Part shown: one piece after another, positions 23,574 through 28,702 of the stretch
Layout of the letters: the number at the start of each line of letters is the position of its first letter
How positions within the stretch are numbered: position 1 is the first letter of the stretch
Virus record (IMG/VR): IMGVR_UViG_3300025096_000084
Location: 1 to 29,137 of that record
Strand: one strand, 5' to 3'
Length of the DNA stretch: 29,137 bases
DNA from: a virus
Made by a program: the position numbers and the translations under genes
The notes under the pieces: generated by a model
Databases searched by the model: none
What the model saw: only the letters and a program-made list of their open reading frames with translations
Told to the model about the DNA's origin: nothing

Positions 23574-24587
23574 TTAAGCAGTATTCAAGAATTCAATAGC
23601 AGCTGCAGGGTTAAGTGTATCAGCACCCATTGCTAGGCGACCAACAAGTACGTCACCCTGGTATAGAACTGACACGTCTCCGCCTGTAACTTGAACTTGA
23701 GGTCCAATAGCTTCAACAATACCAGCAGCATCTCTACCGTAGATCAATCCACAGCTATTAGAGAAATCACCAGAGTAGGTGTTGTTCTCACCAGCTTCAG
23801 CGACAACAGTACCAGCCAAGAAAGGAAGGTTGTTAGAACGCTTGATAGATATACCAGCAATTTCAACTAGTCCTTCACCAGAAGTTAGGTTACCTTGTGA
23901 GTTACCATAGTCTCTGTTGAGGATGTTAGAAGATACCTGTGATACTAGAGCATAGTACTGACGAGGTGAGAGTACAGCTGTTCTTCCATTCTTAGGTACA
24001 TTCTTTTCGTCAAGTACAGAAGCAGCTTCAAAGAAGCCATCAACTAGTGCTTGAGCATCATACTCCTTACCAGAACCAAGTTTGATCTGTGTACCACCAG
24101 GCTCAGGTCCAGGTGAAGCAGTGATAGGATGAGCCGCCCTTGCTGCTAGAGCAATGGTACGGAATACTTTCTTATCATATGCCTCAGCCAGAGCGTGTCC
24201 GATCTTGGCAGAGATTTCAGATCTCAGTGAGTAATGTGCAAGAGTCTCATCTAGGTCATAAACAAACGCAGAGCTGATTAGAAGGTCATCACATTGGATG
24301 GTCTTCTCAGCTACTGGAGGATCGCCTGAACCCAGGATTGGCTCACCAGGAGTATGGTAAGCAGCTTGCATGCGTCCCGTGAAAATGAACTGCAATGATT
24401 TGCCGTTCTTTAGGGTACGTCTTTGCACGGTATCACGTGCTATAGTTGCTGACTCATAAGCTTTGAATAGCTCACCTGAGAACAGCTTTAGATAGGTTGC
24501 ATACTTAGTATCGTATGCTGAACCTGCACCGGTGTTCGAGGCTGCCTTATTAAGGGCACCAATCACCGACTGTGTGGCATTAGCCAT
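23574..24587 (-). CDS. Major capsid protein (T7 gp10-like)
   Basis: The 337-aa protein matches T7-like capsid proteins in length (T7 gp10A 345 aa) and pattern: YLKLFSGELFKAYESATIAR (about 32-51), a KSLQFIFTGRMQAAYHTPGE segment (about 63-82), and later DLLISSAFVYDLDETLAHYS (about 100-119), all typical of this HK97-fold family. It assembles the icosahedral head around the scaffold. It is preceded by a 163-base structured leader and followed by two small genes and the terminator. No slippery site for a gp10B-like frameshift was recognised at its end, which is followed by only 14 bases before the next ATG at 23559. Confidence 0.95.
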   Translation of the reverse strand: MANATQSVIGALNKAASNTGAGSAYDTKYATYLKLFSGELFKAYESATIARDTVQRRTLKNGKSLQFIFTGRMQAAYHTPGEPILGSGDPPVAEKTIQCDDLLISSAFVYDLDETLAHYSLRSEISAKIGHALAEAYDKKVFRTIALAARAAHPITASPGPEPGGTQIKLGSGKEYDAQALVDGFFEAASVLDEKNVPKNGRTAVLSPRQYYALVSQVSSNILNRDYGNSQGNLTSGEGLVEIAGISIKRSNNLPFLAGTVVAEAGENNTYSGDFSNSCGLIYGRDAAGIVEAIGPQVQVTGGDVSVLYQGDVLVGRLAMGADTLNPAAAIEFLNTA

Positions 24588-24750: not shown

Positions 24751-25272
24751 TTAGAACTTCTTAACTTCAACATATGAACCTTCTAAAACAATAACAGGAG
24801 CTGCATTGTCAACGTATTGTCCAAATTGGAAATTGATAGTACCACGTGTGGCGTCATTCTCAATAACGGTTTCCCACTCTAAGTAACCAAGTGTTCCAGC
24901 GATGTTCTGTTCTAGTACAGGATCAGCTGCTATATCTATGTCACTAATTAGAGTGCCATCTGGTTCTAGTCCAGTAGCTACTGAATGAATCGAAGTAACT
25001 GTTGGAGTATCTAATTTGAACTTAGCTCTACCAGTGGTATTCTGAGTCCAATGGATACGATACTTAATAAGCATCCTTTCATAAGGACCGATGTCAACAT
25101 TCAAAGGTGTGATTGTTCTATAAGTTGCACCTTCACTTGAAGCTGCAGTTTGAGAACTAGCTGGACCATAGCCAGCATTATCTGTTTCCCACTGTTCAGC
25201 AAGAATTTTTGTATCCCAAGTAGGAGAGCTATATACTACTCCACCTGTTGTTGTGTTAGCAAGAAATGCCAT
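24751..25272 (-). CDS. Probable head decoration / structural protein
   Basis: The 173-aa protein starts MAFLANTTTGGVVYSSPTWD and is rich in beta-prone sequence with an ending VIVLEGSYVEVKKF. There is no signal peptide, membrane segment or catalytic motif. It is separated from the capsid gene by a structured leader and lies in the same head block, so a capsid-associated or decoration protein is the best inference. From memory similar proteins occur next to capsid genes in marine phages. Hairpins lie on both sides of the gene, which suggests it forms its own mRNA segment. Confidence 0.75.
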   Translation of the reverse strand: MAFLANTTTGGVVYSSPTWDTKILAEQWETDNAGYGPASSQTAASSEGATYRTITPLNVDIGPYERMLIKYRIHWTQNTTGRAKFKLDTPTVTSIHSVATGLEPDGTLISDIDIAADPVLEQNIAGTLGYLEWETVIENDATRGTINFQFGQYVDNAAPVIVLEGSYVEVKKF

Positions 25273-25297
25273 GACTAATTATGTGTTAATCGAGTCT

Positions 25298-25372
25298 AAC
25301 ATGGTTCCGCCATGCTAGTGAATAAGTCCTTGACCTGTTACCACGGACAGTAACAGTTCAACGGCCAAGGAC
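25298..25372 (-). other. Two strong RNA hairpins between genes
   Basis: On the minus strand a long stem-loop spans 25326-25372 (outer GTCCTTG/CAAGGAC, inner CTGTTAC/GTAACAG) and is followed by a shorter one at 25298-25316 (AGCATGG-CGGAA-CCATGTT with one G-U). No U run follows either. They fill most of the 109-base gap between the porin-like and decoration-like genes. Candidates are RNA processing or stability elements. Confidence 0.7.
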
Positions 25373-25381
25373 CTTTAGTAT

Positions 25382-25750
25382 TTAGAATTTAAACTTAGCG
25401 CCAACTTTAGTGGCCCAAGCATTATCATCATCGGTGTCACTGTCAGCAGTGAGTACAGCTACTTCACCGTAGAAGTCAAGCTTCTCTGTGGCAGCAACAT
25501 TTGCACCGACCTTACCAGAAAGTCTGTTATCTGAATCAGCGCCATCTGTGGCTACGATTGCAGGTCCGCCTTGAACATAATAGTCAAAGGTTTCATTACC
25601 GCCTTCATATCCTACGTGAAAGTCTGTAGTAGACCCCGTGTAATCAGCTCCGGTTAGGGATGCGTTGTTCTCCACGTTCACGTATACGCCACCGGCGAAT
25701 GCAGGAACTGTCGCGAAGGTGGATGCGAGAGCTAGTGCTAGTGTTTTCAT
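25382..25750 (-). CDS. Porin-like outer-membrane protein, 122 aa
   Basis: The protein starts with a clear Sec signal peptide, MKTLALALASTFATVPAFA (1-19), with cleavage expected before GGVYVNVENN. The mature part alternates hydrophobic and polar residues (FHVGYEGG, FDYYVQGGPAIVA, LDFYGEVAVLT) and ends AWATKVGAKFKF, with the terminal Phe typical of outer-membrane beta-barrels. It would make a small barrel of perhaps eight strands. I recall similar porin-like genes in cyanomyoviruses. Being among head genes is odd for a host-envelope protein; it could be exported during late infection or be a virion part. Function in the phage is unknown. Confidence 0.75.
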   Translation of the reverse strand: MKTLALALASTFATVPAFAGGVYVNVENNASLTGADYTGSTTDFHVGYEGGNETFDYYVQGGPAIVATDGADSDNRLSGKVGANVAATEKLDFYGEVAVLTADSDTDDDNAWATKVGAKFKF

Positions 25751-25759
25751 TAATAAAAT

Positions 25760-25876
25760 TTAAGTAGTTTTCGTGTAAGGCACGCCGCGATACTTTAGTG
25801 TTACCTGCTTTTTTACTTGCATTGGTTTTCTCCAGTACCACATCCCCGTTCCATGATGTGGTTTCATGCGTTCCAT
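25760..25876 (-). CDS. RGVxY microprotein (DUF4278-like), 38 aa
   Basis: The ORF reads MERMKPHHGTGMWYWRKPMQ and ends VTLKYRGVPYTKTT. The LKYRGVPY core matches the beginning of DUF4278 proteins (LxYRGVxY), which are typical of cyanobacteria and their phages. The aromatic, basic N-terminal half suggests a small binding protein. Starts at 25876 and 25867 are possible; an ATG at 25822 has a good GGAG eight bases upstream and would give only 20 residues. A hairpin (25837-25862) lies inside the coding region. The gene is short, so part of the support is the motif itself. Function unknown. Confidence 0.6.
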   Translation of the reverse strand: MERMKPHHGTGMWYWRKPMQVKKQVTLKYRGVPYTKTT

Positions 25877-25947
25877 TAAGGAATGAACGGACGCGAGTGC
25901 CAGTTGGCTTCTTCTGGTTTCGACTACCGAGCCGCCAGGTAATTCAA

Positions 25948-26130
25948 TTATACTACAGTTTCACTTGCAGCAGGTGTACCGTCAGCAGTATCGCCAACTA
26001 ATTTATCACATTGAGTAAGATCACTTACTCCTGATCCCTTTACGCCAGGGATGAACCAACGATCACTAGCATTGCTAACCATATATTCAACATGGAAATC
26101 GTTTGCTCTTGCGGCTGGGTTATAATACAT
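25948..26130 (-). CDS. Small protein, 60 aa, unknown
   Basis: The protein (MYYNPAARANDFHVEYMVSN...) begins two bases after the scaffold stop, in the same direction, which supports it as a real gene of the head operon. It contains one Cys, several aromatic residues near the N-terminus and an Ala/Thr/Val tail. There is no Shine-Dalgarno before the ATG; an internal ATG at residue 17 is an alternative start. No domain is recognised. Its place between scaffold and capsid genes suggests a minor head protein. Confidence 0.65.
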   Translation of the reverse strand: MYYNPAARANDFHVEYMVSNASDRWFIPGVKGSGVSDLTQCDKLVGDTADGTPAASETVV

Positions 26131-26132
26131 AA

Positions 26133-26909
26133 TTAAAATTCAAGATCTGAACGTTCTAATTTTTGATATAAGTCTTGTCGATATGCAGGGTCCCTATCAT
26201 ATTTAGGGTTACTCATTGCCTCCACAACTTCAGCTTGGCTACGGAATACATCCCGTGAACTTCTAGCTGCTTTGCCTGTAAGCATTCGTCCTTCATATCC
26301 TTCAGTTGTTTCATACTCTGCTTTCAATCCTGCAACTGCAATTTGAATAGCAGTGGCATCTCCCTTATCAATGATGCTGTTGAAAGCATTAAGTTTATTG
26401 TCAGAAATATTTTCGCCAGCCCAACTGAGTAGATCTTGGTAAGCTGCTTCTCCACCTGCTGAATTATAAACTTGATTCATTTCAGAATCAGTTAAGTCAG
26501 GGGACTCACCTTGAGGAGCAGGTGCATTCTTTTGAATTTCCATGTAAGCATTCACTAGATCAGTGCTACTCATCTCTGTGAACTTGGACATTGTTTCTTC
26601 TGAAATCTGTCCTTCGTTGGAATAGTATTCTTCCGAAGCATTAGTGATTAAAGATACAGCAGGACTTACTTCTTCTTCAGGTTCATCCTGCTCTGTATCT
26701 ACTTCAGTATCTTCATCAGCATCTTGTCCAAGCTTCTTCTCTAATTCAGCATAAGCTAGTTCTAATTCTTCAGCGTTTTTAAACTTGCCAAGAATAAGTT
26801 CGTTCTCTTCTTGACCTAACTTCTCTGCCACCTCCAAAGAATTCTGCTCGTCTTCTGAAAGTTCGGGAGCATCAGCGGGGGTGGGATCATACGTCAGTTT
26901 TTCCGTCAT
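26133..26909 (-). CDS. Capsid scaffold protein (T7 gp9-like)
   Basis: The 258-aa protein is strongly acidic, with a long Glu/Asp run at about 86-102 (DADEDTEVDTEQDEPEEE), predicted mostly helical, and has the position of T7 gene 9 between portal and capsid. A short segment LILGKFKNAEELELAYAELE (about 38-57) matches a motif frequent in podovirus scaffolds. The C-terminal part is more basic (RSSRDVFRSQAEVVEAM, YRQDLYQKLERSDLEF) as expected for the region contacting the capsid protein. T7 gp9 is 307 aa. Its start overlaps the preceding small basic gene by 23 bases. It assembles the prohead and then leaves. Confidence 0.92.
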   Translation of the reverse strand: MTEKLTYDPTPADAPELSEDEQNSLEVAEKLGQEENELILGKFKNAEELELAYAELEKKLGQDADEDTEVDTEQDEPEEEVSPAVSLITNASEEYYSNEGQISEETMSKFTEMSSTDLVNAYMEIQKNAPAPQGESPDLTDSEMNQVYNSAGGEAAYQDLLSWAGENISDNKLNAFNSIIDKGDATAIQIAVAGLKAEYETTEGYEGRMLTGKAARSSRDVFRSQAEVVEAMSNPKYDRDPAYRQDLYQKLERSDLEF

Positions 26910-27111
26910 CTTTTAATCCTCGTGCAGTTACTACTTTTAAATTACCTAAACCAACTGTAGTTACATAGTCAGGGTCGAGACCTATTGTAGGTCGACCTAC
27001 TATGGGAGTTGGTGTGGCAACGTCGTTTTGGTTCAGTGGTTGTGGTTTACTAACCTTCGGGAGGGGCTTCTTCTTCGCCCGTGTTGGGCGACTCGCCTTG
27101 GCTTTGTCCAT
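26887..27111 (-). CDS. Small basic protein overlapping the portal gene
   Basis: The 74-aa protein starts MDKAKASRPTRAKKKPLPKV, very basic and proline-containing, followed by a more neutral part (PIVGRPTIGLDPDYVTTVGL). Its first 62 bases overlap the end of the portal gene in another frame, and its last 23 overlap the scaffold gene. No Shine-Dalgarno is strong here. The tight fit between two essential genes and lack of stops argue for a real gene. A head-assembly or DNA-binding role is possible from the charge, but unknown. Confidence 0.65.
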   Translation of the reverse strand: MDKAKASRPTRAKKKPLPKVSKPQPLNQNDVATPTPIVGRPTIGLDPDYVTTVGLGNLKVVTARGLKDDGKTDV

Positions 27112-28702
27112 TTAGTTGATCGTATCCATCGTTTAATGATTTACCCATTGCTGGGTTTTTACTTGGGTCCATCATTGGAGCTCCTGCTAACTGACCAGCT
27201 TGTTGTATTAAAGCTTGTTGCTGTGCCTGTTGCATCTGTTCTTGCTTCTCTTGAGCCATTGTCTCAGGAGTCTTAACAAGATTCAGTACATCTATACCTT
27301 GAGCTGCAGCTAATCGTTTCACATACTCACCAGGATCAAGGAACTTAGCCATGACCTCTGGACCCATTGTTTGTGCAAGAGTTTGTGCGAATGAAACAAG
27401 ACTCTGTTGATCCTGTCCTCTACCTAAAGCATTAACACCTGCAATAATCTGTGGACGTACCACATCTTTAGGGATCTTAGGGATCTCCTTATTACGTTGA
27501 AGGATATGTAATGTTCTATTAAGATAAGGGATTAAGAATTCAACTGTGAGCAAAGAGAATAAACCTCCAAGCTGTTGTTCCAATTCCATCTGCGTGAGGC
27601 GTACCTCTTCTGCAGTTGTTCTCTCACTTTGTCTAACCTGCAATACTAAGAACGCTTCATTGATTCTACGTTCTAAAGTTTGCATTTGCTCAGCTGCTGT
27701 TCTAAAGTCAGCTGTCTTACCAACCTGTATAACACCAACATCATCAGGTCTACCCTGAACGATGGCACCGTTACCAGCATCGGCTATAGTCTTTGGTTTT
27801 GTTGTTGATGAGGGCGATACTAGGAAGATTACTTTACTAGCTGCTGCAGAGCCTTCTACGAGGGCCTGAGAGAGTCCTTCGAGGGATCTTATATCCCCAA
27901 GGAATTCCTCAACCCTACCTCTACCATAATCCTCTCCGTCTACAGTATTAAATCTTAATACTAACCAGGGAGAAGTATTCTTTGGAGCAGTGCTGCGACT
28001 ATTAGGTAATATCTTATCGAATGCTTCCTGATGCCATACCCATCTACCGTTATCATCGAGTCGGACGTAGGTGTATACCTCAACGTCATGATCATCAGAT
28101 CCTGTCTTGTACCCATCAGAACCAGGAGAGTTAACTACTGACTCAGGCATTAGGAGTTCAGGCAGATCTTGACCTAGAATCCTTCGACTTATTAGTTCCT
28201 TTGTTACGATCTCACAAATGTTCCCGTTACCATCACGATTAACTACGTAACGATTGAGGGGATAGTTTTTAAGACCTTCTTTACCCATAAATATCAATGC
28301 GTTTCCAGAGACAATCAAATGTTTGAGTGCCTGATGGACTACAACTCTATCACTAGAGGCATTGATATAATCCATAACCATCCTCTCCATTTTAGCAAAG
28401 GATAAATCTAATTCACTTTTAATTTCCCGGGGAAACTCTACACCAAGTTTATCATCTCTAACCTGCAACTTAAAGAAGGAGGTTTGAGGTGGCAGTAATG
28501 CTAGCATTAGCTTTGCTGCTAAATTAACTACTGACTTAGAGCCAACTGACTGCCAAGGTGTAACTAATTTTTGATGTGTAGGACGTGAACTTAAATCCTC
28601 TTGTACTAAATAAGGCAGCGTTAATCTAGAACACTCAACAGCGGTATCAAGGAACTGTGTTCTACCATTGGATAGTTGTGTGTATCTGTCACGTGCTTTC
28701 AT
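27050..28702 (-). CDS. Portal / head-tail connector protein (T7 gp8-like)
   Basis: The 550-aa protein is close in length to T7 gp8 (536 aa) and shows the family pattern: KARDRYTQLSNGRTQFLDTA at the start, TPWQSVGSKSVVNLAAKLML (about 48-67), LPPQTSFFKLQV (about 70-81), and later QVRQSERTTAEEVRLTQMEL (about 353-372), a conserved block of podovirus portals. The last about 70 residues are Gln/Met-rich and disordered (QEKQEQMQQAQQQALIQQAG). It forms the dodecameric ring for DNA packaging and exit. The ATG is two bases after the preceding small gene; its end overlaps the 74-aa gene. Confidence 0.95.
   Translation of the reverse strand: MKARDRYTQLSNGRTQFLDTAVECSRLTLPYLVQEDLSSRPTHQKLVTPWQSVGSKSVVNLAAKLMLALLPPQTSFFKLQVRDDKLGVEFPREIKSELDLSFAKMERMVMDYINASSDRVVVHQALKHLIVSGNALIFMGKEGLKNYPLNRYVVNRDGNGNICEIVTKELISRRILGQDLPELLMPESVVNSPGSDGYKTGSDDHDVEVYTYVRLDDNGRWVWHQEAFDKILPNSRSTAPKNTSPWLVLRFNTVDGEDYGRGRVEEFLGDIRSLEGLSQALVEGSAAASKVIFLVSPSSTTKPKTIADAGNGAIVQGRPDDVGVIQVGKTADFRTAAEQMQTLERRINEAFLVLQVRQSERTTAEEVRLTQMELEQQLGGLFSLLTVEFLIPYLNRTLHILQRNKEIPKIPKDVVRPQIIAGVNALGRGQDQQSLVSFAQTLAQTMGPEVMAKFLDPGEYVKRLAAAQGIDVLNLVKTPETMAQEKQEQMQQAQQQALIQQAGQLAGAPMMDPSKNPAMGKSLNDGYDQLNGQSQGESPNTGEEEAPPEG

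Follow-up and report, generated by a model that had tools for sequence, protein, structure and literature searches.

The Phage_OMP family (also PF24653, PHROG 417, gp222, DUF680, PhCOG173 and T4-GC 241) is among the commonest cyanophage gene families without an assigned function; as DUF680 it was found in 15 of 16 T4-like cyanophages (PMC3037559), and its members are labeled gp222, hypothetical or DUF680 in GenBank. A tblastn search placed it, at up to about 56% identity, in 469 phage records, both T4-like and T7-like, all of them named cyanophage or uncultured/marine phage. The glutamine-II (Downstream-peptide) riboswitch, RF01704, was first described as a set of covarying helices with a 17–100 aa ORF downstream (PMC2864571), an arrangement that is also present in the DNA analyzed here. 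Glutamine-II riboswitches are ON switches, probably translational (PMC6698751), and the genes under their control appear to go down in nitrogen scarcity (PMC2864571).

The DNA in question, the whole of which we call the window, is a 29,137-nucleotide stretch of a viral genome (IMG/VR record IMGVR_UViG_3300025096_000084). It is a fragment of a T7-like cyanophage whose closest relative, NATL1A-7, is 76.6% identical at the DNA level across 74% of the head region, and it carries a Phage_OMP gene (OMP gene below) among the following features.

23574..24587, minus strand: major capsid protein gene, gp10-like (PF21703, 7e-81; PHROG 267)
24751..25272, minus strand: 173-aa ORF between the OMP and capsid genes (ORF list)
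25296..25374, minus strand: two strong RNA hairpins (25374–25324 and 25318–25296) just 3′ of the OMP stop codon (fold z = -3.5)
25382..25750, minus strand: Phage_OMP gene, 122 aa (ORF, PF24653, PHROG 417, AlphaFold2)
25385..25408, minus strand: C-terminal beta-signal KVGAKFKF, BAM recognition type (pattern in relatives)
25694..25750, minus strand: predicted signal peptide, residues 1–19 (M1–A19), AFA/G cleavage motif (motif and conservation)
25760..25822, minus strand: leader peptide ORF MQVKKQVTLKYRGVPYTKTT, 20 aa (sequence)
25837..25892, minus strand: glutamine-II riboswitch aptamer, RF01704 (Rfam 58.5 bits; gathering score 33)
25948..26130, minus strand: 60-aa ORF between the scaffold gene and the riboswitch (ORF list)
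26133..26909, minus strand: scaffold-like head assembly gene, gp9-like (PF05396, 4e-10; PHROG 1052, 9e-57)
27050..28702, minus strand: portal (head-tail connector) gene (PF12236, 2e-78; PHROG 449)

Coding, export and fold of the OMP

Exactly one ORF occupies the interval 25382–25750; its ATG start codon lies at the 25750 end and its translation runs MKTLALALASTFATVPAFAGGVYVNV...KVGAKFKF, while a plus-strand reading of the same interval is ruled out by stop codons. Between close relatives dN is about 0.06–0.10 and dS 0.28–1.65, and with dN so far below dS this is a conserved coding gene under purifying selection. By its sequence the protein is a new member of the known Phage_OMP family, matching PF24653 in a Pfam profile search over residues 2–122 of 122 (8e-39, 133.1 bits against a cut-off of 27) and PHROG 417 at 1.6e-36.

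A signal peptide, an alternating beta pattern and a terminal Phe had been read from the letters of this gene in the first-pass annotation, and all three are borne out by comparison with 68 relatives and by shuffling. In the predicted signal peptide all 68 share A19 and at least 90% have A17, so that by motif and conservation the protein has the putative Sec signal that marks outer-membrane beta-barrel proteins. The amphipathic strands and C-terminal aromatic beta-signal of such proteins are present as well: the inside/outside hydrophobic contrast over six predicted strands is 1.42, versus 0.63 ± 0.19 when residues are shuffled within strands (P = 0.0002), and the BAM-type pattern (polar)-x-G-x-x-(aromatic)-x-(aromatic or Leu) ends 67 of the 68 relatives versus 10 of 1068 other reading-frame C-termini. 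The mature chain would have 103 residues and is acidic (pI 4.05). There is thus a strong case, drawn from sequence and modeling, that the protein is a secreted outer-membrane beta-protein of a cyanophage.

AlphaFold2 run with 68 diverse sequences gave five models that agree on six strands (residues 21–33, 36–51, 55–68, 74–86, 91–100 and 111–120; pLDDT 84–85, pTM 0.66); this run superseded one with 33 sequences, in which only one model of five was confident. Outer-membrane barrels (FapF, OmpX, OmpG, OprF and Omp38) make up most of the model's Foldseek neighbors in the PDB, all with E > 0.02 and none under E = 0.001, and its top matches among viral models are the Phage_OMP family itself. Searching the PDB by sequence returned no meaningful relative. 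The last strands match the autotransporter barrel model TIGR01414 above its cut-off, and OMP_b-brl weakly.

To our knowledge, no solved one-chain outer-membrane barrel has fewer than eight strands. At least eight are expected of a closed outer-membrane barrel; one chain supplies six in the monomer model, which makes a lone closed barrel doubtful, though an oligomer could reach that number. Nor does the protein fit a general porin, which is a trimeric transport channel of 16–18 strands, given its mature chain of 103 residues and six strands. The earlier description of a small “porin-like” outer-membrane barrel therefore holds only in part; the beta-signal, strand alternation and Foldseek neighbors uphold an outer-membrane beta-protein, but the lone barrel does not sit well with six modeled strands.

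Host-family proteins of 256 aa (L178–L182) carry the Phage_OMP module twice per chain. In profile comparisons the phage module matched their first half at 96.5% and their second at 94.0%, and the two halves matched each other at 98.7%; column-shuffled controls reached at most 0.94%. Full-length two-repeat proteins of this kind occur in five of 300 host-family genomes. Because six strands are too few and the host proteins have two copies, the functional form is probably a small oligomer, although a monomer model of six strands is not in itself proof of one. On the simplest reading each phage chain would be half a barrel, and two copies would join as a dimer in a 12-strand barrel, as in the two-copy host proteins. 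The same low strand count, together with the want of a Foldseek PDB match under E = 0.001, could instead signify a soluble periplasmic or structural beta protein that never enters the outer membrane. We regard this as highly improbable, since it leaves unaccounted for the exact C-terminal beta-signal in nearly all relatives, the strand alternation, top Foldseek matches that are nearly all outer-membrane barrels, the TIGR01414 match and the two-copy host relatives.

Proteins of a further host family, about 318 aa long, match Phage_OMP mainly in their last third. Most of these proteins (L172–L177) have a His-rich N-terminus (HGSHGG), some have His/Asp-rich loops, and the end is Phage_OMP-like; they are possibly metal-related outer-membrane proteins. 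Strong Phage_OMP matches in host assemblies are mostly phage contigs, and five GTDB matches were rejected as host genes on this ground: L089, L184 and L187 are podovirus contigs, L186 is cyanophage-like, and L091 is a T4-like phage contig inside a Nonlabens assembly. One divergent copy (L185) is on a host-like contig. A degenerate copy with two stop codons (L183, G115:C1:132523–132861) lies in a host-family chromosome and may be a relic of phage integration. Two tandem paralogs are present at L154:5946–6681, the second very divergent and, by eye, similar to the type found in phage S-SZBM1, whose protein has been detected in virions.

The OMP gene in the scaffold-capsid auxiliary slot

As the first-pass annotation stated, the OMP gene lies between the scaffold-like and major capsid genes. 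All three are on the minus strand, and two other ORFs also lie between the scaffold-like and capsid genes. These, of 60 and 173 aa, have no family matches (for the latter, none in Pfam or PHROG) and are conserved around the OMP gene in NATL1A-7-like loci. In related metagenomic loci the order on one strand is portal, scaffold, (hli, psbA), OMP, (173-aa ORF), capsid and tail tube. The same slot houses hli and psbA in P-SSP7, where they separate the scaffold from the capsid gene, and in NATL1A-7 and 9515-10a; the OMP gene is found there in NATL1A-7, 9515-10a, P-SSP6 and S-RIP2. Neither psbA nor hli was found in the 29-kb window.

The annotation had singled out this position, and co-expression with head genes, as the point of interest, and here it has to be set aside: T7-like cyanophages have their recognized auxiliary-gene slot at this place, and the T4-like members of the family adjoin nrdC, phoH, psbA or hli, so that co-expression with capsid genes is no common thread. 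Its suggestion to look for the same neighbors in other cyanophages is answered in two ways, with the same slot in T7-like isolates and other neighbors in the T4-like relatives. The synteny shows the OMP gene to be an auxiliary gene of the psbA/hli (gp9–gp10) slot rather than a head gene, and the slot and T4-like neighbors together point to movement of the gene from one phage family to another. This agrees with the OMP tree, in which podovirus copies are intermingled with the rest, with at least 3–4 changes forced by well-supported branches, though many forks are unresolved.

Placement between scaffold and capsid genes might also suggest that the protein is packaged in the virion or attached to the capsid or tail. 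A distant relative, S-SZBM1_90 (122 aa; a Phage_OMP member at 42 bits), was in fact detected by LC-MS in CsCl-purified virions with an emPAI of 1.06 (PMC9146016). It is only a distant relative, however, and outer-membrane fragments are a common contaminant; moreover, ORF224 of S-TIM4, another Phage_OMP member (73.7 bits) and likewise distant from the window protein, was described as not particle-associated although S-TIM4 virions were analyzed by mass spectrometry (PMC6224464). A signal peptide, too, would direct the protein out of the cytoplasm, where capsids assemble, and virion association seems to us very unlikely.

The glutamine-II riboswitch and leader peptide

Upstream of the OMP gene the window contains, in order, the riboswitch, a GGAG Shine-Dalgarno sequence (25833–25830) three nt 3′ of it, the 20-codon leader ORF, its stop codon, 9 nt and the OMP ATG; a short ORF with a ribosome binding site just downstream, as expected of RF01704, is thus in place. 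Across 36 phage aptamers all 520 of 520 paired cells are standard pairs with 97 double changes, a covariation that none of 500 shuffles equaled. The leader peptide has a sub-threshold match to DUF4278. At all 37 of the riboswitch loci examined a peptide of 16–37 aa with the motif [KR]YRG[VI]xY ends 0–15 nt (in one case -1) before the OMP start, and the codons of its core vary mainly at synonymous positions. Neither riboswitch nor peptide is annotated in the T7-like cyanophage records read.

Of 62 podovirus loci with an OMP gene (distinct contigs or records), 52 have the riboswitch directly upstream of it; in nine of the ten exceptions the OMP gene lies 5′ of psbA, and the remaining one is a short contig. 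Among all fetched loci, the leader peptide directly precedes 60 of 69 podovirus OMP genes and none of 63 others. OMP genes without an upstream riboswitch are those of S-RIP2 and KBS-P-1A, those 5′ of psbA, and those of all T4-like loci scanned. Among 18 other, mostly T4-like, loci the riboswitch is never upstream of the OMP gene, and in four it is 63–216 nt downstream. L050, L104, L105 and L115, which have no podovirus head genes, show this order, reversed relative to podoviruses, and a YRG peptide can be read in L050 and L105.

The OMP-less phages P-SSP7 and S-CBP1 have the riboswitch in the same slot, and its presence there is therefore independent of the OMP gene. In both it is an unannotated element in the psbA–capsid gap (L087:4837–4960 and L203:4702–4785, respectively), and in P-SSP7 a 17-aa YRG peptide lies 3′ of it.

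In the window phage and most of its podovirus relatives, then, riboswitch, leader peptide and OMP form one cassette with the OMP as second frame. The tight spacing from peptide stop to OMP start makes translational coupling plausible, such that more glutamine would give more peptide and more peptide more OMP; judging from this arrangement, translation of the OMP probably depends on that of the peptide and increases with abundant glutamine. The absence of a Shine-Dalgarno sequence at the OMP start was rejected as proof of coupling, since most genes of these phages are without one (15 of 18 in NATL1A-7, 8 of 9 in the window). That same fact suits another reading, namely that the riboswitch controls the leader peptide alone and the OMP is simply the next gene, independently translated. 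The OMP-less riboswitches of P-SSP7 (with its peptide) and S-CBP1 suit it too, as do the T4-like loci with the riboswitch downstream of the OMP gene, and we take it as a serious possibility that nonetheless falls well short of an even chance; against it, the spacing is held in every locus examined across diverged OMP lineages, near enough for coupling or re-initiation.

The two hairpins just past the OMP gene, equaled in stability by 1 of 200 shuffles, have no counterpart among Rfam families. Slightly 3′ of this site, NATL1A-7 and several relatives carry a tRNA.

Possible roles and relation to known systems

In the mechanism that we prefer, the protein is exported by Sec, has its C-terminal beta-signal read by the host BAM machinery and, in the course of infection, enters the outer membrane of the host. 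The altered outer-membrane permeability would help the infected cell to acquire nutrients, phosphate for example, at times of sufficient nitrogen. Evidence on phosphate comes from distant T4-like relatives: DUF680 (PhCOG173), like pstS, is over-represented at BATS (PMC3686209), PhCOG173 was suggested to act in phosphate limitation, and when S-TIM4 was left to evolve in nutrient-replete medium on Synechococcus WH8102 its family gene acquired 13 mostly disabling mutations, together reaching ~100% (PMC6224464). Phosphate supply under sufficient nitrogen fits the BATS enrichment, the suggested role and this inactivation in replete medium. Phosphate box predictions in phages have been reported to be unreliable (PMC10976474). 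The permeability and phosphate benefit is the weakest step. As a whole, the likeliest reading is an auxiliary-type protein that acts as a pore or on permeability, is translated together with a leader peptide under glutamine control and benefits nutrient uptake; it is put forward tentatively, at a little under even chances. The more specific proposal that T7-like cyanophages use glutamine to gate a six-strand OMP, which dimerizes into a 12-strand pore and remodels permeability according to host nitrogen state, we would call doubtful.

In other systems phages are known to encode small outer-membrane proteins that prevent adsorption. The OMP could likewise mask or displace a receptor and so exclude superinfecting phages, its nitrogen-state timing being incidental; its acidity and surface loops fit such a role, as does the loss selected in one host, which would reflect a host-specific interaction (S-TIM4; PMC6224464). 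A gene present in 469 records of two phage families, whose hosts range from Prochlorococcus to Synechococcus, with no link to tail fiber genes and in a metabolic-gene slot, is less readily explained this way, and we think it unlikely. The S-TIM4 result can also be taken to mean that the gene is costly in that host (PMC6224464), as it might be if the protein, made near the late genes and inserted in the outer membrane, perturbed that membrane late in infection and helped lysis. The gene is found beside psbA, hli, nrdC and phoH, however, not with genes for holin, lysin or spanin, and a glutamine riboswitch is no obvious lysis timer; such an aid to release seems quite unlikely. An OMP gene directly behind a glutamine-sensing RNA suggests that the protein is made according to host nitrogen state. 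Outer-membrane placement and a nitrogen-sensing RNA upstream in most podovirus loci examined make the role directly testable and tie viral reprogramming to ocean nutrient limitation. An outer-membrane unit of six strands whose host relatives carry two copies would, if true, also bear on how small beta-barrels are built.

Both the riboswitch–peptide–OMP cassette and the six-strand unit with its two-copy host relatives appear to be previously undescribed. Neither the cassette nor the half-barrel relation to host proteins was reported in the literature searched; subscription papers (e.g., the comparative marine cyanopodovirus study) lay outside it and may hold an earlier mention.

Compared with described members of PF24653/PHROG 417, the window protein shares the full-length match, signal peptide, six strands, terminal Phe and cyanophage hosts, but the best matches among isolate phages of the collection searched reach at most about 54–56% identity. 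Its locus differs from the family in general: it occupies the scaffold-capsid slot, follows a glutamine-II riboswitch and has neither psbA nor hli. The T7-like isolates NATL1A-7, 9515-10a, P-SSP6, NATL2A-133, P-SSP10 and P-SCSP-R27W share both the slot and the upstream riboswitch; where annotated they have psbA adjoining the OMP gene, whereas the window phage does not. For RF01704 no report was found of a second, longer gene, here for an outer-membrane protein, that begins 0–15 nt past the peptide. The small barrels OmpX, OmpA and OprF, found as Foldseek neighbors, are alike in fold type, beta-signal and alternation but have eight strands per chain rather than six. The 256-aa host proteins align to the phage module in each half and, unlike the phage protein, have two modules fused in one chain.
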